This document shows, in pieces, positions 22,805-63,219 of a stretch of 64,000 nucleotides of DNA. The stretch is from Sphingomonas donggukensis (GTDB lineage Bacteria; Pseudomonadota; Alphaproteobacteria; Sphingomonadales; Sphingomonadaceae). The stretch covers positions 930,001 to 994,000 of the forward strand of contig NZ_CP098401.1 of assembly GCF_023674425.1 (NCBI RefSeq). The letters run 5' to 3'. Numbering within the stretch: position 1 is the first letter of the stretch; each line of letters opens with the position of its first letter. Under the pieces are notes generated by a model. That model had not been told where the DNA came from and did no database searches. It was given only the letters and a program-made list of their open reading frames with translations. The position numbers and the translations under genes are program-made.

Positions 22805-23236
22805 ATGTTGTTCGGTAAGAAGGAGCGCCGCATCAGCCGCGTCCTCGTCGTCGAGGACGAGCCGCTGGTCGCGTTCGATACCGAACACTTCCTGGGCAGC
22901 GAAGGCTTCGAGATCGTCGGCACGTTCGACACCGTCGCCGACGCGCTGGTGACGATCGAAAGCGCCGAAGACATCCACTTGGTGCTGGTCGACGTCAACC
23001 TGTCGGACGGCAGCGGGGTCGAGGTAGCGCGCGCCGCGCATCTCCGCGGGATCAAGGTCGTGTTCGTGACCGGCCAATGCCCCGGTGAAGCGCAGTCGCT
23101 GGCGGCGGGCTGCCTTGGCAAGCCCTATCCGCAGCGCGACCTGCTCGCGGCGATTGCGGCGCTGGAGAAAGTGATGGACGGCAAGGTGCCCAAGCGCCTG
23201 CCGCCGAGCTTCACCTTGTTCCTGCAACCGGCCTGA
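22805..23236 (+). CDS. Single-domain CheY-like response regulator
   Basis: 143 residues: a receiver domain with a basic 11-residue lead ([11 protein letters not shown]). Acidic pair Glu17/Asp18, phosphoacceptor Asp63 in [12 protein letters not shown], Thr89 in VVFVTGQ, and Lys106 in LGKPY are all in place, so it should be phosphorylated. There is no output domain; it probably works by binding a partner or as a phosphorelay sink. ATG 22805 has a strong GGGAGG six bases upstream. No histidine kinase lies nearby. Its last 26 bases overlap the 3' end of the convergent Rieske gene. Confidence 0.9.
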
Positions 23237-24374
23237 TCGCAGGCGGCGCAGGGGAGAGCATCGTTTCCACCGTGTCGTGGAAAGTGCGGATGCCGGCCTC
23301 CAGTCCGCCGAGCGTCACCCGGTTGATCGCGCCGGACGCCAGCCCCTGTTGCCCGAGCGCGGCGGCGCGGAAATCCTCGCTGGCGAACACGCCGCCGTCG
23401 AGCAGGTCCCAGCTGCGCTCCCAATGGTCGCGCGCCTTGTCGGTCGCGGGCGCCTGCGGGATCAGCATGAAATCGTCGACCAGCACGCGGCCCTCGGACT
23501 GCGGCATCAGGACCATCAGGTTGATGTAGTCCGGGCTGGCGATCAGGACCGTGCCGGGGAACATCTGATAGGTGAAGGTGATCGCGCGGCGCAGCACCGA
23601 CCAGTCGGTCGAGGCGAGCGCGGCGTCGTCCGCCGCGCGCCCGACCGCAGAACGCTGATGCACGCCGATGCTGTCGGCGGTCGACACGCCGTCCTTGAAG
23701 AACGGGCCGATCGTGCCCGCATGCAGGCGCGCGACGTGATAGCTTTCGAGGAAGGCGTCCATGACGAGCTTCCAGTTTGCGGCGACGTCATGGGTGCGGC
23801 GACGGAACAGGTAGTGCTCGGCGAGGTCGAACGCGGCGAAATCGCCGGCCAACGCCTGCGCTTCGGAGAAATCGGCGGCCTCGTCGAAGGCGAACCAGAT
23901 GAGTCCGCCCACTTCTCGCGACGGTAGCTCGCGCAAGCCATAGTCGGCCTTGTCGAGTCCGGGGAACACCTCCGCACGGGGCACGCCGACCAGGCGACCG
24001 TCGGTGGCATAGCTCCAGGCATGATACGGGCAGACGAGCCGCGGGGCCTTCACGCAGTCCTGCCCCTCGACCAGCCGGGTGCCGCGGTGGCGGCAGACGT
24101 TGAGGAACACGTGTGCTTTCCCATCGCTGTCGCGCGTGACGAGCAGCGGCTTGCCGAAGCCGTTATGCGGCACCGCCATGTTGCGGTCCGGCAGCAATGC
24201 CGATGGCGCGATGACCAGCGGCACGCGGTCGAAGATGCGCGCGCGTTCGGCGGCATGGCGCTCGGGCGAGGTGTAGGCCGACGCATCGACATGCGCGATC
24301 GCGTGGCGCTCGCCCTCGCCGCCTGCCGCCAGCCGCGCAGCGAGGGCGAGCTGGCCCTGCGTCGGTGCGTTCAT
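23211..24374 (-). CDS. Rieske-type aromatic-ring-hydroxylating oxygenase alpha subunit
   Basis: 387 residues. The N-terminal Rieske [2Fe-2S] domain has Cys94-x-His96 (CRHRGTRL) and Cys115-x2-His118 (CPYHAWSY). The catalytic domain has the mononuclear-iron site [11 protein letters not shown] with the bridging-acid region upstream. This is the terminal oxygenase type that dihydroxylates or demethylates aromatic or quaternary-amine substrates. No beta subunit, ferredoxin or reductase gene is near, so electron partners are elsewhere. ATG 24374 (MNAPTQGQ) has GAGAGGAAG just upstream. Substrate unknown. Confidence 0.9.
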
Positions 24375-24430
24375 GCTTCCTCTCCCGTGCTTTTCCGCTA
24401 GTCTCGCGCGCCTGGGAGCGGGGAGCAAGT

Positions 24431-25774
24431 ATGACGAGCGTGACGGATTCGGGCGCGGCGAGCTGGTGGGACGGGGTGAAGCCGTATCTGGAGCCGGCAC
24501 CGCTGACCGCGCTGTTCCTGGGAATTTCGTCGGGCACGCCGTTCACCCTGCTCGCCGCAACGCTGACCAACCGGCTGGCCGAGGCGGGGATCGAGAAGAA
24601 ATCGGTGTCGGCGTTCGCGCTCGCACTGTTGATCTACAGCTTCAAATGGATCTGGGCGCCGCTGATCGATCGGTTGCGCGTGCCGCTGCTGTCGTCGGCG
24701 ATCGGCCAGCGGCGGTCGTGGCTGTGGGTCGCGGCGCTGCTGGCGTCCGGAGCGATCGTGGTGATGGGCGCCGCGGACCCGGCGCAGAGCCTGCAACCCG
24801 TGGTTGTCGGCGCGCTTTTGCTCGGCTTTGCCGGCGCGACGTTCGACATCGTCATCGACGCCTACCGGATCGAGACGCTGGAGCCGCGCCAGCTGGGTGT
24901 CGGATCGGGCATGTCGCAATATGGCTGGCGGCTGGGGGCGTTCTTCGCCGCCTCGATCGCGCTCGGCGTCGCCAATGTGTCGGGCTGGAGCTGGGGCTAT
25001 TACGCCTGCATCCCGCTGGTGTTCGCCGCGCCGATCGCGTCGATGTTCATGGGCGAGCCCGCGCGCCACAACGAGCCGGCACCGATCCGCGGCGTGGGTG
25101 CGTTGGCGGCGGCATTCTGGACCCCGCTTGCCGATTTCTTCAAGCGTGAAGGCGCGGTCATCGTGCTGCTGTTCGTGCTGGTTCACAAGATCGGCGACAC
25201 GCTTGCCAATCTGATGATCCGCGACCTGCTGGTGCAGCTGGGCTTCACCAAGCCCGAAATCCTGGCCGGCGACGTGTGGGTCGGCTTCATCGCGCTGCTG
25301 GTCGGGATCTTCGTCGGCGGGGTGATCTACGCCAAGATGGGCATGAAGCGCGCGGTCATGGTCGGGCTGGTGCTGATGGCAGTGTCTAACCTGAGTTTCG
25401 CGGGACTTGCAGCGGTCGGCCATTCGATGCCGATGCTGGCGTGGACCATCGGGTTCGAGAATTTCGCAAGCGGCGTCGGCGGGGTGTCGATCGTCGCGTA
25501 CCTGTCGGCACTGTGCAACCTGCGCTTCACCGCGACGCAGTTCGCCCTGCTCTCCGCCGCTGCCGCCATCGCCGGGCGGTTCCTGACCGGCACAACCGCG
25601 GGCGCGGTGATCGAGGCGGTTGGCTATGTCGACTTCTACCTCATCACCACTGCCCTCGCCGTGCCGGGGATCGTGATATACTGGCTGATGCTGCGATCCG
25701 GGCTGATCGACCGATCGATCGGGTCGGCGGGCGTCGAGGGCGAGGGGGACGCGCGGACGGAGAGCGCCGCTTGA
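24431..25774 (+). CDS. AmpG-like MFS transporter
   Basis: 447 residues, 12-14 predicted helices, of the AmpG/PAT branch of the major facilitator superfamily, which includes importers of GlcNAc-anhydro-muropeptides in peptidoglycan recycling and acetyl-CoA transporters. Family-like blocks: [55 protein letters not shown] and [15 protein letters not shown] 24431 has GGGAGCAAG upstream and gives a good N-terminus. The last codons overlap the start of a PLDc_N/TPR gene by 4 bases (TTGA). Muropeptides are the most likely cargo, not proven. Confidence 0.85.
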
Positions 25775-38411: not shown

Positions 38412-38421
38412 GGCCGCAGCC

Positions 38422-47044: not shown

Positions 47045-47063
47045 TCGCGGCGCCCATCCCTAT

Positions 47064-47167: not shown

Positions 47168-47195
47168 TAAGAGGGGTGCCGCTAGGAGAATGCAG

Positions 47196-48266
47196 ATGGC
47201 AGTCCTGACCGAAGAACAGACGATGCTCCGCGACTTGGCGCGCGAGTGGGTGGACAACGAAGCGCCGGTGACGGCGTGGCGCAAGACCCGCAACGCGGGG
47301 GTCCCCGCGGGCTACGATGCCGAAGTCTGGAAGACCCAGGCCGAGATGGGGTGGGCGGGCGTGTTAATCCCCGAGGAGCATGGCGGCGTCGGCATGGGCT
47401 ATCTGTCGCTCGGGCTGGTGCTCGAACAAATGGGCCGCAACCTCGTCGCCAGCCCGCTGGCCGCGACGGCGGCGGCGACGTCGGCAATCCTGCTCGGCGG
47501 GTCGGATGCGCAGAAGGCGGAGTGGCTGCCGCGCATCGCCAGCGGCGAGGTTGTCGCAACGGTGGCGTTCGACGAGGGCCCGAATTTCGCGCCTGGCCGC
47601 GTGGCGACCAGCGTGACTGACGGCAAGCTGACCGGTACAAAGGCGTTCGTGGCGGAGGGCGACAGCGCGCAGCTTTTCATCGTCTCCGCCACCGATGGCG
47701 TCTATCTGGTGTCGGGCGACACGGGCGTCACGCGCTCGACACGGGCGATGGCTGATGCGCGCAGCCATGCCGCGATCACCTTTGCCGCTGCACCCGCCGA
47801 CAAGCTGGCCGGCGACCCCGACCTCGCCACCAAGGTCGCCGATCGCGCGGCTGTGGCAACGGCGGCGGAGATGCTGGGCCTTGCCGAGGCGGCATTCGCG
47901 ATCACCAACGACTATCTGAAGACGCGCGTCCAGTTCGGGCAACTGCTCTCCAGCTTCCAGGCGCTCCAGCACCGCATGGCCAAGATGTTCACCGAGCTCG
48001 AGCTGATGCGCTCGGCGGTCGAGGGCGCGCTCGAGGCGATCGACAGCGGGCGCTCCGACGTCGATCAGGCCGCCAGCCTTGCCAAGGCGATTGCCGGCGA
48101 CGTCGCGAAACTGGTCAGCCGCGAAATGGTTCAGCTGCACGGCGGCATTGGCATGACCGACGAGCATGATGCCGGGCTGTTCCTCAAGCGGTCGGCGATG
48201 CTGGAGACGATGTGGGGCAATGCCGCCTATCACCGCGAGCGGTTCGCCCGCCTGAACGGCTATTGA
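47196..48266 (+). CDS. Acyl-CoA dehydrogenase, beta-type member of a pair
   Basis: 356 residues. Shorter than a standalone dehydrogenase and lacks the WCQGYSEP-type middle block; it has EEHGGVGMGYLSLGLVLEQMG, GTKAFVAEGDSAQLFIV, and a C-terminal LHGGIGMTDEHDAGLFLKR (FAD pyrophosphate region). Enzymes of this size pair with a larger partner to build alpha2beta2 complexes, as in mycobacterial sterol degradation. ATG 47196 has AGGAG 7 bases upstream; ATG 47190 is only 1 base from that AGGAG. Same strand as the partner, 151 bases on, with a palindrome in the gap. Confidence 0.86.
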   Translation: MAVLTEEQTMLRDLAREWVDNEAPVTAWRKTRNAGVPAGYDAEVWKTQAEMGWAGVLIPEEHGGVGMGYLSLGLVLEQMGRNLVASPLAATAAATSAILLGGSDAQKAEWLPRIASGEVVATVAFDEGPNFAPGRVATSVTDGKLTGTKAFVAEGDSAQLFIVSATDGVYLVSGDTGVTRSTRAMADARSHAAITFAAAPADKLAGDPDLATKVADRAAVATAAEMLGLAEAAFAITNDYLKTRVQFGQLLSSFQALQHRMAKMFTELELMRSAVEGALEAIDSGRSDVDQAASLAKAIAGDVAKLVSREMVQLHGGIGMTDEHDAGLFLKRSAMLETMWGNAAYHRERFARLNGY

Positions 48267-48288
48267 TACACGTGCAAAAGGACGAGCG

Positions 48289-49611
48289 ATGACGACAACG
48301 CCAACGTTGTCGGCGCCGCTCGCCGACGCGATCCAGTACCGGCGTCGCGGGCTGACGCTCGCGCTGCTGACCACGGCCTATTTCTTCAGCTACATGGACC
48401 GTCAGATCCTGGCGATCCTGCAGGAGGATATCCGCGCCGAACTGCACCTGAGCGACACGCAGCTCGGGTTGCTCGCCGGGTTCGCCTTCGCGATCTTCTA
48501 CGCGACGCTGGGCCTTCCGGTCGCGCGGCTGGCGGACAAGGGCAACCGCATCAACATCATCGCGGTCGCGCTGACGATCTGGAGCGCGATGACCGCGGTG
48601 TGCGGTCTAGCCCAGAATTTCATACAGCTGCTGCTCGCCCGCATCGGCGTCGGCATCGGTGAGGCCGGGTCGAGCCCGCCCAGCCATTCGATCATCGCCG
48701 ACCTCTATCCGGCGGAAAAGCGTGCGGGCGCGATGGGCATCTATTCGCTCGGCGTCGTGCTCGGCACAGCATTCGGGACGATGATCGGCGGGTTCGTCGC
48801 ACACCTCTATGGATGGCGGGTCGCGATGTTCACCATCGGTCTGCCCGGCATCCTGCTGGCGGTCGTCATCAAGCTGGTGGTGCCCGAGCCGAAGCGCGGC
48901 CTGTCCGACGTGCAGATCGTCGCGGAGGGCGAGGATCGCGGCACGATGCCGAGCCTCGGCGACGGGTTCCGGTCGCTGTTCGCCAACCGCGCCGCGGTGC
49001 ATCTGGTGATGGGCGTCACCATCACCTCAATGATTGGATATGGCCATGCCGCGTTCGGGCCGAGTTTCCTGATCCGGGCGCTTGGGCTCGACAAGCTCCA
49101 GATCGCCTCGATCGTCGCCCCGGTCGGGGCCTTGTGCGGGACCCTGTCGGCGGTCGTCGGCGGGATACTCGCCAACCGCGCGGCGAAGCGCTGGGGCATC
49201 CATGCGCAAAGCTGGCTGGTGTTCGGCCTGAAATGCGTCGGCCTGCCGCTGTCGTTCTTGTTCTACGCCTCCAGCGATCCGTGGGTGGCGGTGCCGCTCT
49301 ATTGGGCGTCGCTACTGCTGATCTCGACCTATCTCGGCCCGACCTTCGCGCTGATCCAGGGCCAGGCGCCGCTCAGGATGCGGGCGCTGTGGGCGGCGAT
49401 CACGCTGCTGGTCATCAACCTGGTCGGGCTGGGGCTGGGGCCGACGTTGATCGGCGTCATCTCCGATATGCTGAAGCCCTCGCTCGGCGATGCGCAGGCG
49501 TTGCGCTGGGCGATGTTGTCCTTCGCGCTCGCGACCCCGTGGGCGCTCTGGCACTATTGGCGCGCGGGCGTGCTGCTGAAGCGGCAGGAGGCGGCGAAGG
49601 CCGGCGGCTGA
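48289..49611 (+). CDS. MFS transporter, spinster-like
   Basis: 440 residues with 12 helices, of the spinster branch: YFFSYMDRQILAILQEDI, LSDTQLGLLAGFAFAIFYA, PVARLADKGNRINII and ARIGVGIGEAGSSPPSHSII. These are commonly placed beside catabolic genes for sterols, terpenoids and aromatics in sphingomonads. Starts 22 bases after the beta dehydrogenase stop; uptake of the substrate is the likely role. Confidence 0.88.
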   Translation: MTTTPTLSAPLADAIQYRRRGLTLALLTTAYFFSYMDRQILAILQEDIRAELHLSDTQLGLLAGFAFAIFYATLGLPVARLADKGNRINIIAVALTIWSAMTAVCGLAQNFIQLLLARIGVGIGEAGSSPPSHSIIADLYPAEKRAGAMGIYSLGVVLGTAFGTMIGGFVAHLYGWRVAMFTIGLPGILLAVVIKLVVPEPKRGLSDVQIVAEGEDRGTMPSLGDGFRSLFANRAAVHLVMGVTITSMIGYGHAAFGPSFLIRALGLDKLQIASIVAPVGALCGTLSAVVGGILANRAAKRWGIHAQSWLVFGLKCVGLPLSFLFYASSDPWVAVPLYWASLLLISTYLGPTFALIQGQAPLRMRALWAAITLLVINLVGLGLGPTLIGVISDMLKPSLGDAQALRWAMLSFALATPWALWHYWRAGVLLKRQEAAKAGG

Positions 49612-49829: not shown

Positions 49830-51068
49830 CTACAGCACGCGGTTGTCGAACAGTCCGTACATCAGTGTGGACGCATAGTAACGCACCGCCCGCTCGCGCG
49901 GCATGGCGCTCGCCCATTTGCGCATGTCGAAGGCGGCGTTCTGGAGCGACATCAGCGCCTGGCTAGCCACCAGCGGATCGACCGCGCGCACCGACCCCTC
50001 GGCCACGCCGTCGGAGATCATGCCGGCGAAACGCCGGGCGATACGGTTCGACCGGTCGATCATCGTCTGCCGATCACGCGGCGGCAGGCCCGACAGCGCG
50101 GTGGTGCGGAGCAGGGGCCCGCGCTCGGAAAACTGGATGTCGAGCAACGTCGCCATGACGTTCGACAGCATCGCCCACAGCGTACCGCCCCGCGCGTGCG
50201 CGACCGCCTGCGCGCTGGCGATGGTGTCGAAGCTGCGGCGATAGCATTCGGTCACCAGCTCGTCCTTGGCGTCGAGGTGGTGGTAGAAACTGCCTTTGGT
50301 GACGTTCAGCTCGCTCGCGATTTTCTGCACCGATGCGCCGCGATAGCCGAGCTCGTTAATGAGCGTCGTCGCCGCGGTCAGGAACGCGGCGCGGCCCGGC
50401 TCGCTTTCGTCGTGGGCCAGGTCGAGCAGGTGCGGTGCCCACGCATCGCCGTCGACCGCGAGCCCCGATCGGAACACGTCCATCAGCCGGTCCTCGACCC
50501 GCGGAAATTCGTCGAGGTCGTAGCGGCTGAGCCATGCGGATAGCCAGAAAGTGTTTTCCAGCAGCACGTGCGCGCGTGCGCCGTTCAGGTCCTTCGTCGC
50601 GCGGTCGCTCGGGTCTCCCCACAGCGCGCGGGTGTTGCGGAACACCCGCTGCCACCCGGCGAGCAGGCGCCCCTTCATCGGCTCGTCCATCGCGCGCAGG
50701 TCGCTGAGGACGGCAAACGCCTTTTCCTCGCCGCGCTGGATGCGCGCGAGCCGCTCGAAATTGATCGCCAGATAGCGCGCGACCCGCGCCTCCGGCGTCG
50801 CCTCGGCCATCGCCTCGTCCAGCATCGCCTGCAGCCGTTCGAGCGTATCCTCGAAACAGGCGGACGCCAGATCCTCCTTGCGGCGGAAATAATAGGTGAC
50901 GCTGGTGGTGTTCAGCCCGACACGGCTCGCCACGTCGGCGAAGGTCATGCCCTTCGCGCTCTGGTCGTTGATCGCTTCGGCGGCGGCGGCAAGGATCGCG
51001 TCACGCTTCGCGCGAAACCGCTTCGTCCCCCCCGCGTCGCCCGATCCCTTGCTCTCCGGGGCGTTCAT
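49830..51068 (-). CDS. Tandem TetR/AcrR transcriptional regulator
   Basis: 412 residues with two TetR-type DNA-binding domains in one chain. The first is at about 20-66 ([42 protein letters not shown]); the second at about 226-272 ([31 protein letters not shown]). Each is followed by a helical ligand/dimer region. Most TetR proteins have one such domain and about 200 residues. Divergent from the ACAD10/11-like gene with a perfect palindrome between them, so it is likely the local repressor. ATG 51068. Confidence 0.88.
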
Positions 51069-51167: not shown

Positions 51168-51183
51168 TACCGAAAAATCGGTA
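51168..51183. promoter_or_regulatory. Perfect palindrome, candidate TetR operator
   Basis: TACCGA-AAAA-TCGGTA, 6-base arms perfectly complementary around four A's. It lies in the 160-base gap between the divergent tandem-TetR gene and the acyl-CoA dehydrogenase gene, 45 bases before the latter's ATG. Position and symmetry suit a repressor site; ligand binding is inferred. Confidence 0.45.
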
Positions 51184-51228: not shown

Positions 51229-52512
51229 ATGGACTTCACGCTGAGCGAGCGCGAGACCTATTTCCGCGACCGGGTGAAGACCTTCATCGACCGCGAGATC
51301 GCGCCGCGGCAGGACGAGTATTACGCCCAGCAGAAGGATGGCGAGCGCTGGAAGGTGCTGCCGGTGATCGAGGACGTGAAGAAACTCGCCCGCGCTCAAG
51401 GCCTGTGGAATTTCTTCATGCCGCCGCATTCGGGCCAGACCCATGTCGACGGCAGTTTCGAATTCGAGGGCACGCAGCTCACCAACCTCGAATATGCGCT
51501 GTGCGCCGAGGAAATGGGCAAGATCGGCTGGGCCAGCGAATGCTTCAACTGCTCGGCGCCCGACACCGGCAACATGGAGGTGTTCCACCGTTACGGCACC
51601 CGCGCGCAGAAGGATCGCTGGCTGAAGCCGCTGATGGACGGCGAGATCCGCTCCGCCTTCCTGATGACCGAGCCGGCGGTCGCGTCGTCGGACGCCACCA
51701 ATATCGAAACGTCGATGGTCCGCGACGGCGACCATTATGTCATCAACGGGCGCAAATGGTGGTCGTCGGGCGTCGGTGACCCGCGCTGCGCGGTCGCGAT
51801 CGTGATGGGCAAGACCAATCCGGATGCCAAGCGCCACGCCCAGCAGAGCCAGATTCTGGTGCCGATGGATGCTCCGGGCGTCACCATCGAACGCATGCTT
51901 TCGGTTTATGGGTATGACCATGCGCCCCACGGCCACGGCGAAGTCGTGCTGAAGGATGTGCGGGTTCCGGTCGAGAATGTGCTGCTGGGCGAGGGTCGCG
52001 GATTCGAGATCGCGCAGGGACGCCTGGGGCCGGGGCGCATCCATCACTGCATGCGCACGATCGGCGTCGCCGAAACCGCGATCGAGGCGATGGCCAAGCG
52101 TCTGCTCAGCCGCGTTGCCTTCGGCAAGCGCATTGCCGACCATTCGATCTGGGAACAGCGGATCGCGAAGGCGCGCATCGATATCGAGATGACGCGCCTG
52201 CTGTGCCTGAAGGCCGCGGACATGATGGACAAGGCGGGCAACAAGTCCGCCCAGCTCGAAATCGCGATGATCAAGGTCGCGGCGCCGACGATGGCGCTCC
52301 AGATCCTCGACGACGCGATCCAGGCGCATGGCGGCGGCGGCGTCAGCCAAGACTTCCGCCTGGCGCACGATTGGGCCGCGATGCGCACGCTGCGCTTTGC
52401 CGATGGTCCTGACGAGGTCCACAACCGCGCCATCGCCCGCAACGAATTCGGCAAATACGGCGACTGGAAGGCCGAGGCGCTGTCGAGCGGAGATGTTGGG
52501 GTTAGTCGCTAG
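51229..52512 (+). CDS. Acyl-CoA dehydrogenase, ACAD10/11-like
   Basis: 427 residues. FAD enzyme with the marks of the ACAD10/11 branch: [44 protein letters not shown], and the C-terminal [21 protein letters not shown], where GPDEVH replaces the MCAD-type YEGTSEIQ. In animals and in Pseudomonas LvaC, related proteins act on 4-phosphoacyl-CoA made by a kinase from 4-hydroxyacyl-CoA. A kinase-like gene lies 1.2 kb downstream in the same direction. ATG 51229 has GGGAGG ten bases upstream. Confidence 0.88.
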
Positions 52513-52517
52513 CTTCC

Positions 52518-52596
52518 CGTGCTCCCGCGAAGGCGGAAGCCCAGAGCCGCGCGCGGTTACGCCTGTAACCCTAGGCTCCCGCCTTCGCGGGAGCAC
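52518..52596. repeat. GTGCTCCCGCG palindromic repeat, copy 2
   Basis: Inverted repeat in the 95-base gap between the ACAD10/11-like gene and the alcohol dehydrogenase gene. The outer arms (CGTGCTCCCGCGAAGGCGG and its complement ending GGGAGCAC) match the 2423-2502 copy, including the inner GGTTAC and CCTAGGCTCCCGCC blocks. It adds an inner GGTTAC/GTAACC hairpin. Confidence 0.8.
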
Positions 52597-52607
52597 AGAG
52601 AGGTGAA

Positions 52608-53690
52608 ATGAAAGCAGCCGTTCTTTTCGAAGCGAAGCAGCCCCTCTCGATCGAGGACGTGCAGGTCGCCAACCCCGGCCCGCACGAGGTGCTGATCCGC
52701 ACCGTCGCGGTCGGCGTCTGCCGGTCCGACCTGCACTTCGTCGATGGCGCCTACCCGCACGCGATGCCGACGATCCCCGGCCACGAGGCGGCGGGGGTGG
52801 TGGAGGCAGTCGGCAGCGAAGTGCGCTTGGTGAAGGTCGGCGACCATGTCGTCACCTGCCTCAGCGCCTTCTGCGGACACTGCGAATTCTGCGTCACCGG
52901 CAACATGTACCTGTGCCTGGGCGCCGACACGCGCCGCGGCAAGGGTGAGGTACCGCGGCTGATGCTGGGCGACACGCCGGTCGCGCAGATGCTGAATCTC
53001 AGCGCCTATGCCGAACAGATGCTGGTCCACGAACACGCCTGCGTCGCGATCGACCGGGAAATGCCGATGGACCGCGCAGCGCTGATCGGGTGCGCGGTGA
53101 CGACGGGGGCGGGGGCGGTGTTCAACTGCTGCGACCTCGATCCCGGCGAGATGGTCGCGGTGGTCGGCTGCGGCGGGATCGGGCTGGCCGCGGTCAATGC
53201 CGCGAAGATCGCGGGTGCGGGGCGGATCATCGCGATCGATCCGGTGCCCGAAAAGCGCGCGCTCGCCGAGAAGCTCGGCGCCACCCACAGCATCGACGCC
53301 CTGAGCGATACCGCCGCCGACGAAGTCGTCGCGCTGACCAAGGGCGGCGTCCACCACGCGATCGAGGCGGTCGGGCGCCCGCAATCGGCGGCGACCGCGG
53401 TGAAGGTGCTGCGCCGCGGCGGCACCGCAACCATCCTGGGCATGATGCCGCTCGCTGAGAAGGTCGGGCTCTCCGCACTCGACCTGCTGTCGGGAAAGAA
53501 ACTACAGGGCGGGCTGATGGGCGCAAACCGCTTCCCGGTCGACATTCCGCGGCTCGTCGATTTCTACCTGCGCGGGCTCCTCGATCTCGACAGCATCATC
53601 GCCGAGCGCGTCCCGCTTGCGCAGATCAACCACGCCTTCGAAGAACTCCGCAAGGGCGACGCGACCCGATCGGTCGTCGTCTTCGAATGA
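52608..53690 (+). CDS. Zinc-dependent alcohol dehydrogenase (MDR)
   Basis: 360 residues. Catalytic zinc ligands Cys38 and His59-Glu60 (GHEAAG), structural zinc Cys89, Cys92, Cys95 and Cys103 (CGHCEFC...C), and a Rossmann motif VVGCGGIGLAAV. Class III-like layout. Oxidises a primary or secondary alcohol to aldehyde/ketone with NAD+. Its stop overlaps the next gene by 4 bases, so dehydrogenase and kinase are co-translated. Confidence 0.9.
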   Translation: MKAAVLFEAKQPLSIEDVQVANPGPHEVLIRTVAVGVCRSDLHFVDGAYPHAMPTIPGHEAAGVVEAVGSEVRLVKVGDHVVTCLSAFCGHCEFCVTGNMYLCLGADTRRGKGEVPRLMLGDTPVAQMLNLSAYAEQMLVHEHACVAIDREMPMDRAALIGCAVTTGAGAVFNCCDLDPGEMVAVVGCGGIGLAAVNAAKIAGAGRIIAIDPVPEKRALAEKLGATHSIDALSDTAADEVVALTKGGVHHAIEAVGRPQSAATAVKVLRRGGTATILGMMPLAEKVGLSALDLLSGKKLQGGLMGANRFPVDIPRLVDFYLRGLLDLDSIIAERVPLAQINHAFEELRKGDATRSVVVFE

Positions 53691-54742
53691 GCGAGGCGCC
53701 GCAGACCATCGCCGCGGAGGGCAGGGACCGCCTCGACGTCGCGGCGCTGACCGCGTGGATGGAGGCGAACGTCGCGGGTTTCGCCGGGCCGCTCACTTAC
53801 GCGAAGTTCGCGGGCGGCCAGTCGAACCCGACCTATCGCATCGACGCCGCCTCTGGCAGCTATGTGCTGCGCCGCAAGCCGTTCGGCCCGCTGCTGCCGT
53901 CGGCGCACGCGGTCGATCGCGAATACCGCTTGATCGCCGGGCTGCACCCCACCGGCTTCCCGGTCGCGCGGCCTTATGGCCTATGCACCGACGAAGGCGT
54001 CATCGGTGCCATGTTCTACGTCATGGGCCTGGCCGATGGGCGCAACCTGTGGGACGGCACGCTGCCGGATTATGCGCCGGCGGAGCGCACCGGCATCTAC
54101 GATGCGATGTGCGACACGCTCGCCGACCTGCACAACACGGACTATGTCGCGGCGGGGCTCGGCGATTACGGCAAGCCCGGCAACTACTTCGAACGCCAGG
54201 TCGCGCGCTGGACGAAGCAGTATCGCGCGTCCGAGACCGAGCATATGGCAGAGGTCGAGCGGCTGATCGCATGGCTGCCCGCGACACTGCCCGAACAGAC
54301 GCGCACGTCGATCGTCCACGGCGACTACCGCATCGACAACATGATCTTCGCGCACGACGCGCCGCGCGTGATCGCAGTGCTCGACTGGGAGCTGTCCACA
54401 CTCGGCGATCCGCTCGCCGACTTCAGCTATTTCCTGATGAGCTGGGTAACCCAGCCCGAAGGACGCTCCGGCGTGATGGGCGTAGCGGGCGGCGACAGCG
54501 GCATCCCGACGATCGAGGACATGGTCGCGCGCTACTGCGCTCGCACCGGTCGCGACGGCGTGCCCGACCTCAACTGGTATTTCGCCTACAACCTGTTCCG
54601 CCTGACCGGCATCGTCCAGGGCATCAAGAAGCGCATCGTCGAGGGCACGGCGTCAAGCGCGCAGGCTGAGCGGTCCGCGGCGCAGGTGTATCGATTGGCT
54701 TCGGCCAGCTGGAGCTTTGCAGAGAAGGCGGGGGCGGCGTGA
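53687..54742 (+). CDS. APH-fold phosphotransferase, ACAD10/11 N-domain-like
   Basis: 351 residues. Kinase-like APH fold: GGQSNPTYRID glycine-rich loop, Lys64 in VLRRKPFG, catalytic IVHGDYRIDN (His211, Asp213, Asn218) and metal-binding VLDWELSTLGDP (Asp233). The GGQSNPTY...LRRKP and DWELST blocks are typical of the family fused to the dehydrogenase in ACAD10/11 and of LvaA, not of antibiotic kinases. Proposed role: phosphorylating a 4-hydroxyacyl-CoA for elimination by the ACAD10/11-like enzyme. Overlaps its neighbours by 4 bases on each side. Confidence 0.88.
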   Translation: MSEAPQTIAAEGRDRLDVAALTAWMEANVAGFAGPLTYAKFAGGQSNPTYRIDAASGSYVLRRKPFGPLLPSAHAVDREYRLIAGLHPTGFPVARPYGLCTDEGVIGAMFYVMGLADGRNLWDGTLPDYAPAERTGIYDAMCDTLADLHNTDYVAAGLGDYGKPGNYFERQVARWTKQYRASETEHMAEVERLIAWLPATLPEQTRTSIVHGDYRIDNMIFAHDAPRVIAVLDWELSTLGDPLADFSYFLMSWVTQPEGRSGVMGVAGGDSGIPTIEDMVARYCARTGRDGVPDLNWYFAYNLFRLTGIVQGIKKRIVEGTASSAQAERSAAQVYRLASASWSFAEKAGAA

Positions 54743-55506
54743 AAAACCTGTTCGACCTGACCGGTAAGGTCGCAATCGTCACCGGCTCATCGAAGGGTAT
54801 CGGCAAGGCGTCCGCCGAGGCCTTGGCCGAGCATGGTGCCAAAGTCGTGATCTCCAGTCGAAAGCAGGAGCCGTGCGACGAGGTCGCCGCCGCGATCAAC
54901 GCGGAGCACGGGGACGGCACCGCGATCGCGGTCGCGGCCAACATCTCCGACAAGGACGGCCTCCAGAGCTTAGTCGATCGCTCCCGCGCGGCCTTCGGGT
55001 GGATCGACGTGCTGGTCTGCAACGCCGCGTCCAACCCCTATTACGGGCCGATGGCGGGCATCGAGGATGCGCAGTTCCGCAAGGTTCTCGACAACAATAT
55101 CCTCTCCAACCACTGGCTGATCCAGATGGTCGCGCCCGAGATGATCGCGCGGGGGGAGGGGTCGATCGTGATCGTCTCGTCGATCGCCGGCATCCGCGGC
55201 ACGGCGACGCTCGGCGCCTATGGCATTTCGAAGGCCGCCGACATGGCGCTCGCCCGCAACATGGCGCAGGAATTGGGGCCGCACGGCGTGCGCATCAACT
55301 GCATCGCGCCGGGGCTGGTGAAGACCGACTTCGCCCGCGCGCTGTGGGAAGACCCGGAGCGGGAGCGCGAGACCAACGCCCGCGTGCCGCTGCGCCGCAT
55401 CGGCACGCCGGACGAGATCGCGGGTGCGGTCGTCTATCTCGCGAGCCCGGCCAGCGCCTTCATGACGGGCCAGGCGATGGTGATCGATGGGGGAGTGACG
55501 ATCTGA
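54739..55506 (+). CDS. SDR-family oxidoreductase
   Basis: 255 residues from a GTG overlapping the kinase stop (GTGA). VTGSSKGIGKASAE nucleotide loop, CNAASNPYYGP (an NAA variant of NNAG), IVSSIAGIRG with the catalytic Ser, YGISK with Tyr/Lys, and CIAPGLVKTDF. Resembles peroxisomal DECR/DHRS4-like and 3-oxoacyl reductase-type SDRs. Could interconvert the hydroxy and oxo forms of the acyl-CoA chain. Confidence 0.88.
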   Translation: MKNLFDLTGKVAIVTGSSKGIGKASAEALAEHGAKVVISSRKQEPCDEVAAAINAEHGDGTAIAVAANISDKDGLQSLVDRSRAAFGWIDVLVCNAASNPYYGPMAGIEDAQFRKVLDNNILSNHWLIQMVAPEMIARGEGSIVIVSSIAGIRGTATLGAYGISKAADMALARNMAQELGPHGVRINCIAPGLVKTDFARALWEDPERERETNARVPLRRIGTPDEIAGAVVYLASPASAFMTGQAMVIDGGVTI

Positions 55507-56294
55507 TGCGGTTCAAGGGCAAGTCGATCATCGTGACCGGCGCGGGCTCCGGCATCGGGCGCGCCGCGGCGTGGCTGTTCGCCAGCGAGGGCGGGCGCGT
55601 GATCTGCGCCGACATCAACGATGGCGCCGATCGCATCGCCGAGGAAATCGGCGACCGCGCCACCGCGATTCGCATGGACGCGGGTTGCGAAGAGGACGTC
55701 GTCCGCGCGGTCGACCTTGCCGTCGCGACGCACGGCGGGCTGGACATCATGTTCGCCAACGCCGGCATTTCGGGCGGGATGGCCAACATCTTCGACACCG
55801 ACGTCGCGCTCATCACCGACGTGCTGCGGGTCAACCTGATCGGGCCGTTCCTGGCCATCAAGCATGCCGCCCCGCGCATCGCCGAGCGCGGCGGCGGCGC
55901 GATCGTGCTGACGGCCAGCGTCGCGGGCATCCGATCGGGGGCAGGCTCGCCCGCCTATTCGGCTTCGAAGGCCGGCGTCATCAATCTGGCCGCGGTCGCC
56001 GCGCAGCAATTGTCGGGCAGCAACGTGCGCGTGAACGCCATCTGCCCCGGCTTGACCGAGACGGGCATGACCAAGCCCACGTTCGACTATGCGCGAGAGG
56101 CCGGAAAGGTCGACCGCATCGGTCGCCTGAACCCGCTGCGCCGCGGCGCCCAGCCGGAGGAACTGGCGAAGGTCGCCGCGTTCCTGGCCAGCGACGACGC
56201 CAGCTACGTCAACGGCCAGGCGATCGCGGTCGATGGCGGCCTGTCTTCGAGCCACCCGGTAACGAAGCAGGAATACGGCAAGACCGCGGTCTAG
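55506..56294 (+). CDS. SDR-family oxidoreductase
   Basis: 262 residues. VTGAGSGIGRAAAW, FANAGISGG, LTASVAGIRSGAG with the catalytic Ser, YSASK, and NAICPGLTETGM. Its ATG shares one base with the previous stop (TGATG). The acidic residue after the second strand (VICADIND) favours NAD(H). Last gene of the dehydrogenase-kinase-SDR-SDR operon; the stop overlaps that of the convergent tesB gene. Confidence 0.88.
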   Translation: MRFKGKSIIVTGAGSGIGRAAAWLFASEGGRVICADINDGADRIAEEIGDRATAIRMDAGCEEDVVRAVDLAVATHGGLDIMFANAGISGGMANIFDTDVALITDVLRVNLIGPFLAIKHAAPRIAERGGGAIVLTASVAGIRSGAGSPAYSASKAGVINLAAVAAQQLSGSNVRVNAICPGLTETGMTKPTFDYAREAGKVDRIGRLNPLRRGAQPEELAKVAAFLASDDASYVNGQAIAVDGGLSSSHPVTKQEYGKTAV

Positions 56295-57190
56295 GCCTTG
56301 TCGCGCAGGCGGATCAGCCCCTCCTGCGCGGTGCTGGCGACCAGGCGTCCGTCGCGCGTGAAGATGCGCCCGCGATTGAAGCCGCGGGCGTGCCCGGACC
56401 ACGGACTGTCGGTGGTGTAGAGCAGCCAGTCGTCGGCGCGGAACGGCTCGTGCAGCCAGACGGCGTGGTCGAGGCTGGCGGTCTGCATCCGGTCGGTCAG
56501 CCAGCTTTTGCCATGCGGCAGCATCGCCGTGCCGAGCAGCGCCATGTCGGATGCATAGGCCAGCATCGCGCGATGGATCGCGGCATCGTCGGGCAGGGGC
56601 GCGACGACGCGGAACCAGCTGTGCCAGACGGGGTCGGTGGCGGTCGGCCGGGTCAGCGACCGCGGGCTGACCGGGCGCATCTCGATCGGACGCGCGCGCA
56701 GGAAGAACGGGCGCAGCTTCTCGGGGATGTCGTCGATATGTTCGAGCCGCAGGTCGCGCTCGGATTTCAGGGCGTCGGGGCCGGGCACCTCGGGCATCGC
56801 GTCCTGATGATGCAGCCCGTCCTCGGCGCGCTGGAACGATGCCGCCATGTTCAGGATCGGCTTGCCGCGCTGCATCGCGATGACGCGCCTCGTCGCGAAG
56901 CTGCCGCCGTCGAAATCGCGCACCACGCGGTAGATGATCGGGAAATTCTCGTCGCCGGGGCGCATGAAATAGGCGTGGAGCGAGTGCGCCGCCTTGTCAT
57001 GCACGCTGCGCTGCGCGGCCTGGAGCGCCTGGGCGATCACCTGCCCACCGAACACGCGCCCGACGCCGCCGGGCTGGCGCGCCCCGCGGTAGAGGTCGGT
57101 GTCGATTTCCTCGACGTCGAGCAGGGCGATGAGCTGCGCGGTCAGCGCCTCGGGCGTTTCGGCGCGGGCAGGGGGATTGTGGTCGGTCAT
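56291..57190 (-). CDS. tesB: Acyl-CoA thioesterase II
   Basis: 299 residues, double-hotdog TesB. RVFGGQVIAQALQAAQRSV at the first hotdog, HAYFMRPGD, and DHAVWLHEPFRADDWLLY in the second, with the Asp/Thr/Gln catalytic positions expected there. Cleaves medium- and long-chain acyl-CoA to fatty acid and CoA. Separated from the next minus-strand gene upstream by nothing but its own start; a long palindrome precedes it. Confidence 0.92.
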   Translation of the reverse strand: MTDHNPPARAETPEALTAQLIALLDVEEIDTDLYRGARQPGGVGRVFGGQVIAQALQAAQRSVHDKAAHSLHAYFMRPGDENFPIIYRVVRDFDGGSFATRRVIAMQRGKPILNMAASFQRAEDGLHHQDAMPEVPGPDALKSERDLRLEHIDDIPEKLRPFFLRARPIEMRPVSPRSLTRPTATDPVWHSWFRVVAPLPDDAAIHRAMLAYASDMALLGTAMLPHGKSWLTDRMQTASLDHAVWLHEPFRADDWLLYTTDSPWSGHARGFNRGRIFTRDGRLVASTAQEGLIRLRDKA

Positions 57191-57197
57191 GCTTAAG

Positions 57198-57330
57198 TTC
57201 CTCCCCGGTCACGGGGAGGGGGACCATGCGCAGCATGGTGGAGGGGGCGTGCCTCCAGCGATGCGCGTGGGGCGATCCCCCTCCACCACGTCCTTCGGCC
57301 GCGGTCCCCCTCCCCGTGAACGGGGAGGAA
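57198..57330. repeat. 133-bp long inverted repeat, TTCCTCCCC...GGGGAGGAA
   Basis: The arms (57198-57225 and 57303-57330) match at 27 of 28 positions; a second inner pair, TGGTGGAGGGGG with CCCCCTCCACCA, extends the stem. It lies between tesB and a dehydrogenase gene, both on the minus strand. In size and architecture it is like the 131-bp element at 712-842. Confidence 0.8.
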
Positions 57331-57338: not shown

Positions 57339-58466
57339 TCAATATCCCGCCGCGCGCGCCAGCTGGTCCGTGTGGAAATTGGTGTCGCCGAACATCTCCG
57401 CCAGCACCCGCGCGCGCTTCATGTAGAAGCCGATGTCGTATTCGTCGGTCATGCCGATACCGCCGTGCATCTGGATGCCCTCCTGCACCGACAGCGTAGT
57501 GGCGAGGCCGGTCATCGCCTTTGCGACCGACACCGCGGCATCCGCGCCGGGATCGCTCGCATCGAGCAGTTGCTGCGCCTTCAGCGTCGCGGCCCGCGCG
57601 ACCTCCATTTCGGAATACAGATGCGCGGCGCGGTGCTGGAGCGCCTGGAAGCTGCCGATCGGCACGCCGAATTGCTTGCGCTCCTTGAGATAGGCGACGG
57701 TCATGTCCATCGCCCCGCCGCCGACGCCGAGCATTTCCGCCGACGCGCCGGTCCGGCCGGCTGCGAGCAGGCGGGTGAGGCCACTCCATCCGCCATCGAC
57801 CTCGCCGATCACCGCATCTGCATCGACCTCGACGCCATCGAAGGTCAGTCGCGATGCGAAGCTGCTGTCGGCCAGCCGCTGCGGATCGTTGGCGAGCCCC
57901 GCGGCGCCCGCTTCGACGGCGAACAGCGTCACGCCGTCCTTCTCGCCGGCTGCGCCGGCGGTGCGGGCCGCCACGATCAGCAGGTCGGCGACATGGCCGT
58001 GGGTCACGAACCGCTTGGTGCCGCTCAACCGGAACCCGTTGCCGGCGCGCTCGGCCTTCAGGGCGATGTCGGTGCGGTGCTTGGGGCCTTCATCGATTGC
58101 CAGCGCCGCGACGGTGTCGCCCGAAAGGATGCCGGGGAACCAGCGCGCGGCGTGCGCGGTGCCGCCCAGCGCCGATACCGCAGCGACCGCGGTCGTGAGG
58201 AAGGGGGAGGGCGTCAGATTGCGCCCGATCTCCTCCAGCACGACGCCTGCCTCGACATGGCCAAGACCCAGGCCTCCGTCGGCCTCGGGGATCAGGATGC
58301 CGGTGAAGCCCATCTCGGCAAAGGATTTCCACAGCGTCCGATCGAAACCGGTCGCATCCTTGGCATCGCGCAGGCGCCGCATGTGGCCGACCGGGGCGTG
58401 CTCGGCGACATACTCCTTCGCGGTATCCCGGAGCATCGTCTGTTCGTCGTTCAGGAATAGCGGCAT
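57339..58466 (-). CDS. Acyl-CoA dehydrogenase, beta-type member of a pair
   Basis: 375 residues, similar in layout to the 47196 gene: EADGGLGLGHVEAGVVLEEIG, GTKRFVTHGHVADLLIV, and MHGGIGMTDEYDIGFYMKR at the C-terminus. Lacks the WCQGYSEP block of full-length enzymes. Probable partner of the dehydrogenase just upstream (58558-59742), giving an alpha/beta complex. ATG 58466 (MPLFLNDEQTML) is the best start. Confidence 0.86.
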   Translation of the reverse strand: MPLFLNDEQTMLRDTAKEYVAEHAPVGHMRRLRDAKDATGFDRTLWKSFAEMGFTGILIPEADGGLGLGHVEAGVVLEEIGRNLTPSPFLTTAVAAVSALGGTAHAARWFPGILSGDTVAALAIDEGPKHRTDIALKAERAGNGFRLSGTKRFVTHGHVADLLIVAARTAGAAGEKDGVTLFAVEAGAAGLANDPQRLADSSFASRLTFDGVEVDADAVIGEVDGGWSGLTRLLAAGRTGASAEMLGVGGGAMDMTVAYLKERKQFGVPIGSFQALQHRAAHLYSEMEVARAATLKAQQLLDASDPGADAAVSVAKAMTGLATTLSVQEGIQMHGGIGMTDEYDIGFYMKRARVLAEMFGDTNFHTDQLARAAGY

Positions 58467-58557: not shown

Positions 58558-59742
58558 TCAGGACGGCAATTCCAGGATGCGCTTGGCGATGATGTTCAGC
58601 TGCACCTCGCTCGTCCCGCCTTCGATCGAATTCGCCTTGGTGCGCAGCCACGCGCGCGCAGCGGCACCGCCGTTCGAGGCGTCGCTTTCCCACTCCAGCG
58701 TGTCCGTCCCGCCAGCGGCCATGATGAGTTCGTGGCGCGCCTTGTTCAGTTCGGTGCCGTAGTATTTCATCATGCTCGGCTGCGCGGGGTGCGAGCGTCC
58801 GGCCTTCAGTTCGTCGATGAAACGCTCCGACATCATCCCGAACGCCTTGCTGCGCACCTCGAACAGCGCGAGGCTGGCACGCAGCAGCGGATCGGCGAGC
58901 CGCCCGTCGTGATCGAGCCCGATAGCGGCGATCGCGCCGTCGATCAGCGGATTGCCGCCGGGCGACGACAGCCCCATGCCGGAGATCATCTCGCGCTCAT
59001 GCCCGAGCAGATATTTAGCGACGTCCCAACCCTTGTTGAGTTCGTGGACCAGGTTTGCCTTGGGCACCTTCACATTGTCCATGAAGGTTTCGCAGAACGG
59101 CGAATAGCCCGAGATCAGCAGGATCGGCTTCGTCGACACGCCTTCCGACGCCATGTCGAACAGGACGAAGCTGATGCCGCCTTGCTTCGTCGTCCTGTCG
59201 GTGCGGACGAGGCAGAAAATCCAGTCGGCCTTGTCGGCGTAGCTGGTCCAGACCTTCTGCCCGTTGACCAGGAAATGGTCGCCCTTGTCCTCGGCGGATG
59301 CCGCCAGCCCGGCGAGGTCGGAGCCGGCGTTGGGTTCCGAATAGCCTTGGCACCAGCGGATTTCGCCGCGCGCGATCTTGGTGAGGTGATCGAGCTTCTG
59401 CTCCTCGGTCCCGTATTTCAGCAGCGCCGGCCCGAGCATCGAGATGCCGAAGGAATTGAGCGGATTGCGTGCGCGGATCCGCGCCATTTCTTCGCGCAGG
59501 ATCTTCGTTTCCGCCGCCGACAGCCCACCGCCGCCATAGGCCTTGGGCCAGTCCGGCACCGTCCAGCCGCGCGCGGCCATGCGATCCATCCACAGCTTCT
59601 GGTCCGGGGTCAGCATCGACTGGTCGCGCCCGCCCCAGCATGCGTCCTTCTCCGACCGGACGGGCTCGCGCATCGACGGCGGGCAGTTTTCCTCCAGCCA
59701 GGCGCGGGTTTCGCTGCGGAAGGTTTCGAGGTCTTGGGTCAT
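58558..59742 (-). CDS. Acyl-CoA dehydrogenase, alpha-type member of a pair
   Basis: 394 residues. PDWPKAYGGGGLSAAETKIL, WCQGYSEPNAGSDLAGL, NGQKVWTSYADKADWIF, and the C-terminal IEGGTSEVQLNIIAKRIL. As in the 45827 enzyme, the MCAD Glu position is Gly. Same two-gene logic with the shorter dehydrogenase downstream. The two pairs are homologous modules, likely with different chain or ring specificity. Confidence 0.88.
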   Translation of the reverse strand: MTQDLETFRSETRAWLEENCPPSMREPVRSEKDACWGGRDQSMLTPDQKLWMDRMAARGWTVPDWPKAYGGGGLSAAETKILREEMARIRARNPLNSFGISMLGPALLKYGTEEQKLDHLTKIARGEIRWCQGYSEPNAGSDLAGLAASAEDKGDHFLVNGQKVWTSYADKADWIFCLVRTDRTTKQGGISFVLFDMASEGVSTKPILLISGYSPFCETFMDNVKVPKANLVHELNKGWDVAKYLLGHEREMISGMGLSSPGGNPLIDGAIAAIGLDHDGRLADPLLRASLALFEVRSKAFGMMSERFIDELKAGRSHPAQPSMMKYYGTELNKARHELIMAAGGTDTLEWESDASNGGAAARAWLRTKANSIEGGTSEVQLNIIAKRILELPS

Positions 59743-59755: not shown

Positions 59756-59837
59756 CCGTTCGTCCTGAGCTTGTCGAAGGACGTGTCACGGGCAATGCGT
59801 TTGGGGCATGTGCTTCGACTTCGCTCAGCACGAACGG
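59756..59837. repeat. CCGTTCG...CGAACGG palindromic repeat, copy 3
   Basis: 82 bp with left arm CCGTTCGTCCTGAGCTTGTC and right arm CTTCGCTCAGCACGAACGG. Lies between the FadB-like gene and the dehydrogenase gene, both on the minus strand. Clear match to the 12513-12582 copy. Confidence 0.8.
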
Positions 59838-59862
59838 GGGAGGGGCGACCCTCCCCGCATCG

Positions 59863-61890
<2,028 letters not shown>

Positions 61891-61910
61891 GGATTTCCTT
61901 TCAAACTCAT

Positions 61911-61998: not shown

Positions 61999-63219
61999 TC
62001 AATTCAGCGCCGAATAGATCATCGTCTTCAGTTCGCGGCGGATCGGATAGGTGTTGCTGGGCGACATTTGCGTCATGAAGATCATGATGATGCGCTCCAC
62101 GGGATCGATGAAGAACGCGGTCGAGAACAGCCCGCCCCAGTAGAATTCGCCGACCGATCCCGGTACCAGTGTCGGCGCGACGTCGATGGTGACCGCGAAG
62201 CCGAGGCCGAAGCCGACCCCGGCGTTGGTCGCTTCCGAAAACATCGACCGGCTCATGCTGGCAAGGTCGGCGCTCCCGGGCAGGTGATTCATCGTCATCA
62301 GCGCGACCGACTTGCGCGAAAGGATGCGCGCGCCGTCCAGCGTGCCGCCATCCAGCAGCATCCGGCAGAACCGATGATAGTCGAGCGCGGTCGAGACCAG
62401 CCCGCCGCCGCCGGAGACCAGCTTAGGCGCCCGGCTCCACGCCGATGCCGCTCCCTGGTCGTACATCACGCGGCCTTTGCCGGGCGCCAGCGTATAGCAG
62501 TCGGTCAGGCGATCGATCTTGTCGGCGGGCACTTCGAAGAAGGTGTCGTGCATGCCGAGCGGCGCGAAGATGCGGGTGCGGAATACTTCGGCCAGCGGCA
62601 TTTCGGCGACACGCTGCACGACCAGCCCGAGAAGGTCGGTCGATACCGAGTAGTTCCACGCCTCACCGGGTGAAAACTCGAGCGGCAGCTTCCCCAGCGC
62701 CGCGGCGAAGCCGTCGAGGTCGAGGTTGCCGTGCCAGCTTTCGATCCTGCCCTCGCGGTAGGCGGCGTCGATGTTCGAACGGTTCTGGAACCCGTAGGTG
62801 AGCCCCGACGTGTGCCGCAGCAGGTCGATCATCCGCATAGGCTCGGCGGTTGGCTTGGTCGCGAACGCCATGCCGGCACCGCCGCCGTTGTAGACGCCGA
62901 CGCCCTTCAGTTCGGGGACGACGTGGTGGACCGGGGTGTCGAGCGCGACCCGACCCTCCTCGACCAATTGCATGAACGCGACCGACGTCACCGGCTTGGT
63001 CATGCTGGCGATGCGGAACAGGCTGGCGTCATCGACCGCCGCGCCGCCTTCCCGCGCCGCGCCCATCGACGACAGGTGGACGATCGCGTCGTCGCGACCG
63101 ATCAGCAGTTGCGCGTTGGGCAGCTTGCCGTTGGCGACGTAATTCGCGTCGAGGAAGGCATCGATCCGGGCCAGGCGACCGGCGTCGAAGCCATGATCCT
63201 CGGGCTTCGCGATTGTCAT
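61999..63219 (-). CDS. Serine hydrolase of the beta-lactamase/transpeptidase-like fold
   Basis: 406 residues. SMTKP motif (Ser72, Lys75), YSVS in WNYSVSTD (class C-like Tyr), and FYWGGLFSTAFF near the end in place of the KTG. No signal peptide, so cytosolic, and more like EstB-type esterases and class C-like hydrolases than beta-lactamases. With CoA ligases near, it may open a lactone or hydrolyse an ester before CoA activation (inference). ATG 63219. Divergent from the acyl-CoA synthetase gene. Confidence 0.85.
   Translation of the reverse strand: MTIAKPEDHGFDAGRLARIDAFLDANYVANGKLPNAQLLIGRDDAIVHLSSMGAAREGGAAVDDASLFRIASMTKPVTSVAFMQLVEEGRVALDTPVHHVVPELKGVGVYNGGGAGMAFATKPTAEPMRMIDLLRHTSGLTYGFQNRSNIDAAYREGRIESWHGNLDLDGFAAALGKLPLEFSPGEAWNYSVSTDLLGLVVQRVAEMPLAEVFRTRIFAPLGMHDTFFEVPADKIDRLTDCYTLAPGKGRVMYDQGAASAWSRAPKLVSGGGGLVSTALDYHRFCRMLLDGGTLDGARILSRKSVALMTMNHLPGSADLASMSRSMFSEATNAGVGFGLGFAVTIDVAPTLVPGSVGEFYWGGLFSTAFFIDPVERIIMIFMTQMSPSNTYPIRRELKTMIYSALN

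Follow-up and report, generated by a model that had tools for sequence, protein, structure and literature searches.

4-Hydroxy acids stall β-oxidation. Does a gene set of Sphingomonas donggukensis provide a way past this block, through the chemistry of animal ACAD10 and ACAD11? Two papers of 2024-2025 define the animal enzymes and, in the text available, cite one bacterial operon, named for levulinate (PMC12440821; PMC11342911). The gene set lies in a stretch of 64,000 nucleotides, here called the window, which corresponds to positions 930001-994000 of contig NZ_CP098401.1 (the genome is 2.9 Mb, in one contig). We put the probability at about 0.82 that a kinase (53687..54742) and a dehydrogenase (51229..52512) encoded there form a split ACAD10/11, predicted from sequence to act on 4-hydroxyacyl-coenzyme A (CoA) and accompanied by a pathway in the surrounding genes.

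The dehydrogenase gene runs on the plus strand from an ATG at 51229 to a stop at 52512, and its product has the GPDEVH carboxyl terminus described in an initial annotation of the window. Its Protein Data Bank (PDB) matches are led by mouse ACAD11 (447 bits, 54% identity), followed by human ACAD11 (433) and 4hr3 (427); the best chain outside the ACAD11 group reaches only 139 bits. That annotation had named placement in another clade by phylogeny as a refutation. In a 62-row maximum-likelihood tree (without mouse ACAD10 and Pseudomonas putida LvaC), the protein falls not in another acyl-CoA dehydrogenase clade but in one of 29 rows that includes human and mouse ACAD11 (support 100/99); nine other acyl-CoA dehydrogenases of the same genome, five encoded elsewhere and four in the window, lie outside this clade.

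In the accessible text of PMC12440821, four residues of mouse ACAD11 are special to ACAD10/11 and LvaC: R626; H634 and R637, both in the HCMR motif; and D753. Nonconservative substitutions at the first three were the most disruptive. Numbered from the ATG at 51229, residues R265, R270, H273, R276, and D392 of the window protein correspond to mouse R626, R631, H634, R637, and D753. D392, an Asp that replaces the usual Glu base, is aligned with the position at which chain 8v3v has N in place of D. The R626 position and the string GRIHHCMR are invariant in all 104 related rows of at least 66% identity; in the 45-66% band, nine of 12 rows have HCMR and three have HTMR. (The ACAD11-type copies of loci L073, L158, and L169, at 63-64% identity and with a kinase also in the locus, carry HTMR for HCMR, a natural variant of the phosphate-binding motif.) The predicted reaction is phosphate elimination, converting 4-phosphoacyl-CoA to 2-enoyl-CoA.

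The kinase, likewise encoded on the plus strand, has the aminoglycoside phosphotransferase (APH) fold and is a predicted 4-hydroxyacyl-CoA kinase. Its PDB matches include 3dxp (380 bits, 52% identity) and the mouse ACAD11 kinase domain (243 bits, 39%). Four of its residues, R78, R170, D213, and N218, equal mouse R86, R176, D220, and N225: the CoA-contact arginines, the catalytic Asp, and an Asn. (In chain 8v3u, the D220 position carries an Ala.) The initial annotation had assigned it to the ACAD10/11 amino-terminal domain type, and a 32-row tree agrees, grouping it with mouse ACAD11 and 3dxp at 99/98; the mouse and some other branches are long. The genome's two other APH kinases were left out of this tree, in which 9o56, an Acinetobacter kinase, and the kinases of one distant family of the order are set apart. 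By every sequence feature tested, both proteins of the pair belong to the ACAD10/11-LvaA/LvaC kind. The clade placement of both proteins, and their retention of the 4-phosphoacyl-CoA-handling residues that PMC12440821 describes, support the split ACAD10/11-type reading first proposed.

The two genes are also linked. At the threshold used, the dehydrogenase is present in 57 of the 61 same-genus genomes searched (S. donggukensis included), and in 54 of these 57 the kinase lies within 3 kb on the same strand. Over 100 genomes, 84 have both genes, 10 have neither, and six have only one (Fisher p ~4e-9, a value inflated by shared ancestry and incomplete genomes). The pair therefore stays in the same genomes even when its members are not adjacent.

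What surrounds the pair? Open reading frame positions and Pfam families confirm the five plus-strand genes originally described: the dehydrogenase; a Zn-dependent alcohol dehydrogenase (Zn-ADH, 52608..53690); the kinase; and two short-chain dehydrogenases/reductases, SDR1 (54739..55506) and SDR2 (55506..56294). The last four were said to overlap by 1-4 bases. This is correct, because a gap of 95 bases separates the dehydrogenase from Zn-ADH, and the three overlaps that follow are of 4, 4, and 1 bases. The gene set is real, but the range first given to it, 51229-56294, is too narrow: the conserved neighbourhood extends from 49830 to the end of a ligase gene at 65117, and takes in a regulator, a thioesterase, a two-subunit-type dehydrogenase pair, a FadB-like protein, a serine hydrolase, and the ligase, all overlooked earlier.

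The regulator is a divergent, minus-strand TetR-type protein with two Pfam TetR_N stretches (49830..51068; the start Met at 51068 is a choice). Downstream, the minus strand encodes in convergent orientation a TesB-type acyl-CoA thioesterase II, assigned by Pfam (56291..57190; NCBIfam tesB 271 bits, cut-off 293), followed by four further genes: ACADd, a small-subunit-type acyl-CoA dehydrogenase (57339..58466; NCBIfam PimD below cut-off); ACADc, its large-subunit-type counterpart (58558..59742; PimC below cut-off); a FadB-like enoyl-CoA hydratase/3-hydroxyacyl-CoA dehydrogenase (59863..61899, start a choice; NCBIfam FadB-type, below the equivalog cut-offs); and a serine hydrolase of β-lactamase fold (61999..63219; PF00144, 217 bits), a candidate esterase or lactonase. 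Both ACAD genes are conserved. The AMP-binding acyl-CoA ligase (63417..65117, plus strand, start a choice) has only its first part, to 64000, in the window. A Croceicoccus-cluster ligase finds its best match in this genome at contig positions 993423-995096, with 65% identity, and a relative of the ligase is next after FadB in two Sphingomonas loci (L092 and L101). Relatives of the serine hydrolase are co-located in Sphingomonas, Sphingopyxis, Croceicoccus, and (at 36-42%) Bradyrhizobium loci.

Within the genus this arrangement recurs. Loci of about 4 kb around the kinase, from S. donggukensis and 29 same-genus genomes, contain SDR2 in 30 of 30 cases, ACAD11 in 29 (in the 30th its gene is just past the fetched stretch), Zn-ADH in 28, and SDR1 in 23. 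The order TetR, dehydrogenase, (Zn-ADH), kinase, (SDR1), SDR2 holds in 19 of 20 same-genus regions of 17-18 kb; in the exception, G027, the kinase is alone at the locus and the dehydrogenase is on a different contig. After SDR2, the 20 regions, several of which end too early for downstream genes, have TesB in 17, ACADc in 16, FadB in 12, and an ACADd-type gene in 17 (counted through a weak match to the related query ACADb, since ACADd was not among the queries).

A second sample comprised 80 named loci fetched by the dehydrogenase, the closest being Sphingomonas at 90% identity. Presence was scored at set identity thresholds (kinase 55%, TetR 40%). Twenty loci have at least 78% dehydrogenase identity, and contain the kinase in 19, TetR in 19, SDR2 in 18, Zn-ADH in 16, SDR1 in 15, and each of TesB, ACADc, and ACADd in 12. 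The other 60 are more distant, and many are cut by contig ends; among them, 42 contain the kinase, 27 ACADc, 27 SDR2, 24 ACADd, 23 SDR1, and 22 Zn-ADH, with FadB (15), TetR (5), and TesB (2) rarer. Subsets of the genes are also found, differently arranged, in Sphingopyxis, Bradyrhizobium, Ideonella, and Rubrivivax; the examined stretches of the Ideonella and Rubrivivax loci have no kinase.

Plasmids carry similar sets as well. On one from Novosphingobium capsulatum, a nearly complete one-direction set, divergent from a TetR gene, comprises the dehydrogenase, the kinase, two SDRs, a FadB-type gene, a long-chain acyl-CoA ligase, three acyl-CoA dehydrogenases, MaoC, a thiolase, and an oxidoreductase; two of the three acyl-CoA dehydrogenases match other Croceicoccus-cluster ones, not ACADc or ACADd. 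A Croceicoccus plasmid has a similar set, more scattered. An activation gene and genes for the following steps share the kinase/dehydrogenase neighbourhood. (Plasmid pISP1 of Sphingomonas sp. MM-1 has a lone ACAD11-type gene of 72% identity at L156:10004-11242, beside linX, near linA, and among IS6100 copies. A link to mobile elements through this gene was dropped: its neighbours differ from those of the window locus.)

The two SDRs differ in their cofactor signatures. By the usual SDR rule, Arg after the second β-strand indicates reduced nicotinamide adenine dinucleotide phosphate (NADPH), and Asp at its end indicates the non-phosphorylated cofactor (NAD). SDR1, whose best solved relative is DHRS4, has the Arg in all 56 orthologue rows; SDR2 has the Asp in all 66. 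The catalytic YxxxK is present in 54 of the 55 SDR1 rows viewed (of 56) and in 66 of 66 SDR2 rows. These opposite signatures suggest a paired oxidation/reduction step. NAD-dependent oxidation of one isomer and NADPH-dependent re-reduction of the ketone would fit the roughly fourfold preference of the ACAD10 kinase for the R isomer, reported in the available text of PMC11342911, and would also admit 4-oxo acids. The remaining oxidoreductase, Zn-ADH, belongs by Pfam to the class III/NDMA-like medium-chain dehydrogenase/reductase family (NCBIfam matches are below cut-offs); its best PDB chain is an S-(hydroxymethyl)glutathione dehydrogenase.

How might the genes be regulated? The stretch that separates the TetR gene from the dehydrogenase gene contains a perfect palindrome, TACCGA-AAAA-TCGGTA (51168..51183), about 55 bases ahead of the dehydrogenase start. 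With up to two mismatches, it is found in 37 of the 44 upstream regions where the TetR gene is present, versus four of 44 after shuffling, and in two of 56 regions without that gene, versus three of 56. (The control is weak, a single mononucleotide shuffle per region, and the window itself supplied the motif.) Conserved copies lie about 52-68 bases before the dehydrogenase start. The palindrome is a good candidate operator for the double-TetR regulator. An operator-based regulon was considered and dropped: its other matches are scattered over the window, and genome-wide there are 75 forward matches with up to two mismatches, versus 43 for the reversed control.

These elements can be assembled into a candidate pathway. 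The serine hydrolase may act on a lactone or ester to release the acid, whose CoA ester the ligase at 63417 would make. SDR2, of the NAD type, and SDR1, of the NADPH type, may oxidise and re-reduce the 4-position, either to provide the isomer preferred by the kinase or to allow 4-oxo acids to enter. The kinase would phosphorylate the 4-hydroxyl of 4-hydroxyacyl-CoA with adenosine triphosphate (ATP), and the dehydrogenase, with bound flavin adenine dinucleotide (FAD) and its Asp base, would expel the phosphate to yield 2-enoyl-CoA for β-oxidation. The FadB-like protein would presumably take the enoyl-CoA onward while ACADc and ACADd serve other rounds by desaturating the chain. From the palindrome at 51168, the double-TetR protein would repress the gene set. 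Hydroxy or oxo fatty acids that exceed levulinate in length seem the likeliest substrates; the larger size is suggested because the ligase is of long-chain type and because TesB and the two-subunit-type dehydrogenase pair are present. Oleate hydratase, considered as a source of even-position hydroxy fatty acids, was rejected: it has no match in this genome, and exceeds the family cut-off in five of 61 genomes. A bile-acid lead from the literature (PMC12882949) was also dropped, the word phosphotransferase being absent from its main text as available.

Several observations weigh against this assignment. In other families of the order, the pair is adjacent in only four of 30 genomes that have the dehydrogenase. 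Eighteen of the 60 distant loci, including those of Caulobacter, Phenylobacterium, and Methylobacterium, contain no kinase of at least 55% identity (some of these loci end early), and four loci (L095, L105, L106, and L127) have SDR1 or SDR2 with no kinase nearby. Several loci of the genus lack SDR1 or Zn-ADH. TesB, a conserved neighbour within the genus, is rare outside, with only the two distant occurrences. SDR1 is often missing and SDR2 occasionally so (L090), and these gaps therefore weaken the claim that both are always needed. The gap from the serine hydrolase to the ligase has no copy of the palindrome (up to two mismatches), and co-regulation of these two with the other genes is therefore not supported. 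Finally, steroid degradation involves relatives of the ligase and of ACADc, and the substrate could be bulky rather than a simple fatty acid.

This last point defines the first alternative, unlikely but substantial: that the same chemistry acts on a bulky, steroid- or terpenoid-like hydroxyacyl-CoA, the pair removing a hydroxyl from that skeleton. In the PDB, 4x28_A and Tcur3483 chains fill the top three places for ACADc, and Tcur3481 (6wy8_A, 149 bits) ranks second for ACADd; all of these are steroid enzymes. The top chain for ACADd, however, is an isovaleryl-CoA dehydrogenase (4kto, 151 bits). The second-best NCBIfam model for the ligase is the steroid-24-oyl-CoA synthetase CasG (449 bits), which falls far below its cut-off of 750, as the PimC and PimD matches do theirs; the ligase scores highest with a general long-chain model (462 bits, cut-off 476). 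The window also has a gene of the Rieske ring-hydroxylating oxygenase alpha-subunit type (23211..24500), overlapping the frame of a major facilitator superfamily (MFS) gene start. Beyond this one oxygenase, no steroid-ring cluster is evident among the 39 open reading frames scanned with Pfam, a selection of the genes in the window and the next 6 kb.

A second alternative, considerably less probable, is the levulinate pathway proper, in which an SDR would reduce levulinyl-CoA and the kinase and dehydrogenase would complete the conversion. The kinase, dehydrogenase, SDR, and ligase families do match LvaA, LvaC, LvaD, and LvaE as described in the available text of PMC6692424, and at family level the locus, with both a ligase and an SDR, resembles P. 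putida lvaABCDE. It differs in having a TetR-type regulator, an extra SDR, Zn-ADH, TesB, the two-subunit-type pair, FadB, and the serine hydrolase; the second SDR, that pair, TesB, and the long-chain-type ligase hint at larger substrates. Beside the lva operon is the sigma-54-type regulator LvaR (PMC6692424), while the neighbour here is the double-TetR protein and no sigma-54-type LvaR lies beside the locus. Strictly speaking, the window locus is not an lva operon, because its regulator differs.

The initial annotation noted no clear LvaB-like gene and took this as a sign that the substrate may differ. None is recognised at the locus, and the overlapping block has no room for a separate small gene, as judged without an LvaB sequence and for the locus rather than the rest of the genome. 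As an objection the absence is weak, because the lva cluster of Pseudomonas citronellolis LA18T, as PMC6692424 gives it, has homologues of LvaA, LvaC, and LvaD and also lacks LvaB. (That cluster has a histidine phosphatase gene beside LvaA; Pfam finds none among the window cluster genes. A row resembling it occurs in Acinetobacter baumannii at L032:4703-8537: an HHCMR dehydrogenase, an APH kinase with HND for HGD, and, by eye, a histidine-phosphatase-like gene with an RHG motif, followed by an SDR-like gene.) The remaining alternative, an ordinary acyl-CoA dehydrogenase adjacent by chance to an unrelated APH-family enzyme, draws on the size and generality of both families and is very improbable in view of the clade placement, the phosphate-binding motif, the linkage in 54 of 57 genomes, and scores below 24 bits for the kinase with antibiotic-kinase NCBIfam models, whose cut-offs are at least 205.

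The split ACAD10/11 thus favoured has both parts homologous to mouse ACAD11, with the same catalytic and phosphate-handling residues where checked. Unlike the single-chain mammalian ACAD10 and ACAD11, it is encoded by two separate genes, with the Zn-ADH gene between them and a TetR-type regulator beside, and the locus has no counterpart of the HAD domain that PMC11342911 describes in ACAD10. By description it resembles Burkholderia LvaA and LvaC, a separate kinase and dehydrogenase of ACAD10 type, which reportedly replace either ACAD10 domain (PMC11342911, in the text available). The chemistry is already published for animals, P. putida, and the Burkholderia orthologues; what is added here is an extended gene set. 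No publication on this Sphingomonas locus was found among the open-access papers searched, as judged from listings.

The locus looks like a near-complete, regulated bacterial version of the animal ACAD10/11 route. It offers testable assignments for proteins that carry the generic annotations "phosphotransferase family protein" or "SDR", and it may provide a route for hydroxy fatty acids and gamma-lactones. Separately encoded enzymes would also be useful for studying FAD-dependent phosphate elimination.

Is this chemistry confined to ACAD10/11-type enzymes? Some similar kinase genes (three at 49-54%) adjoin a different dehydrogenase, here termed class B, which forms a deep sister clade of ACAD11 and is about 29-33% identical to the window dehydrogenase. 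The HCMR motif has been called ACAD10/11-specific (PMC12440821, in its accessible text), and class B keeps R-x4-R-x2-HCMR and the Asp in all 15 rows viewed, representing 14 distinct genes; examples with the motifs xRL[SA]PARL[ST]HCMR and IYDGP[TS]E are at L033:4744-5934, L071, L072, and L170-L181. Three class B proteins join the ACAD11 clade of the 62-row tree at 100/98, on a long branch. Among 100 relatives, 25 have class B, in 28 copies, 15 with an APH kinase no more than 1.2 kb away on the same strand and 13 without; at the threshold used, none was found in the genome of S. donggukensis. Class B occurs in sphingomonads and on an Acinetobacter soli plasmid, and 152 plasmid records contain class B-like proteins, by similarity alone and regardless of motif.

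This suggests a wider family of phosphate-eliminating dehydrogenases. A joint proposal, that phosphate elimination in the acyl-CoA dehydrogenase superfamily extends beyond ACAD10/11 and that the SDRs of opposite cofactor type in the window locus act as a redox epimerase feeding one isomer to the kinase, is tentative, with the odds somewhat against it. If true, several of the bacterial gene pairs that combine an acyl-CoA dehydrogenase with a phosphotransferase would encode hydroxyacyl-CoA deoxygenases that differ in the hydroxyl position or skeleton on which they act.

Some smaller features of the window deserve mention. Repeated GC-rich palindromes (CCTCCCC...GGGGAGG), possibly dispersed repeats or terminators, lie at 57200-57328, between ACADd and TesB, and at 59837-59856, upstream of ACADc. 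Just upstream of the locus is a second acyl-CoA block (40816-49611), parts of which recur beside the locus in the genus: an AMP-binding ligase, an SDR, a GST-like gene (by eye), an MFS gene, the ACADa/ACADb pair (two-subunit-type, PimC/PimD-like, below cut-offs), and an MFS transporter. Further upstream, a protein with several EF-hand matches (39226-39966) is encoded near a histidine kinase gene (37074-38498).

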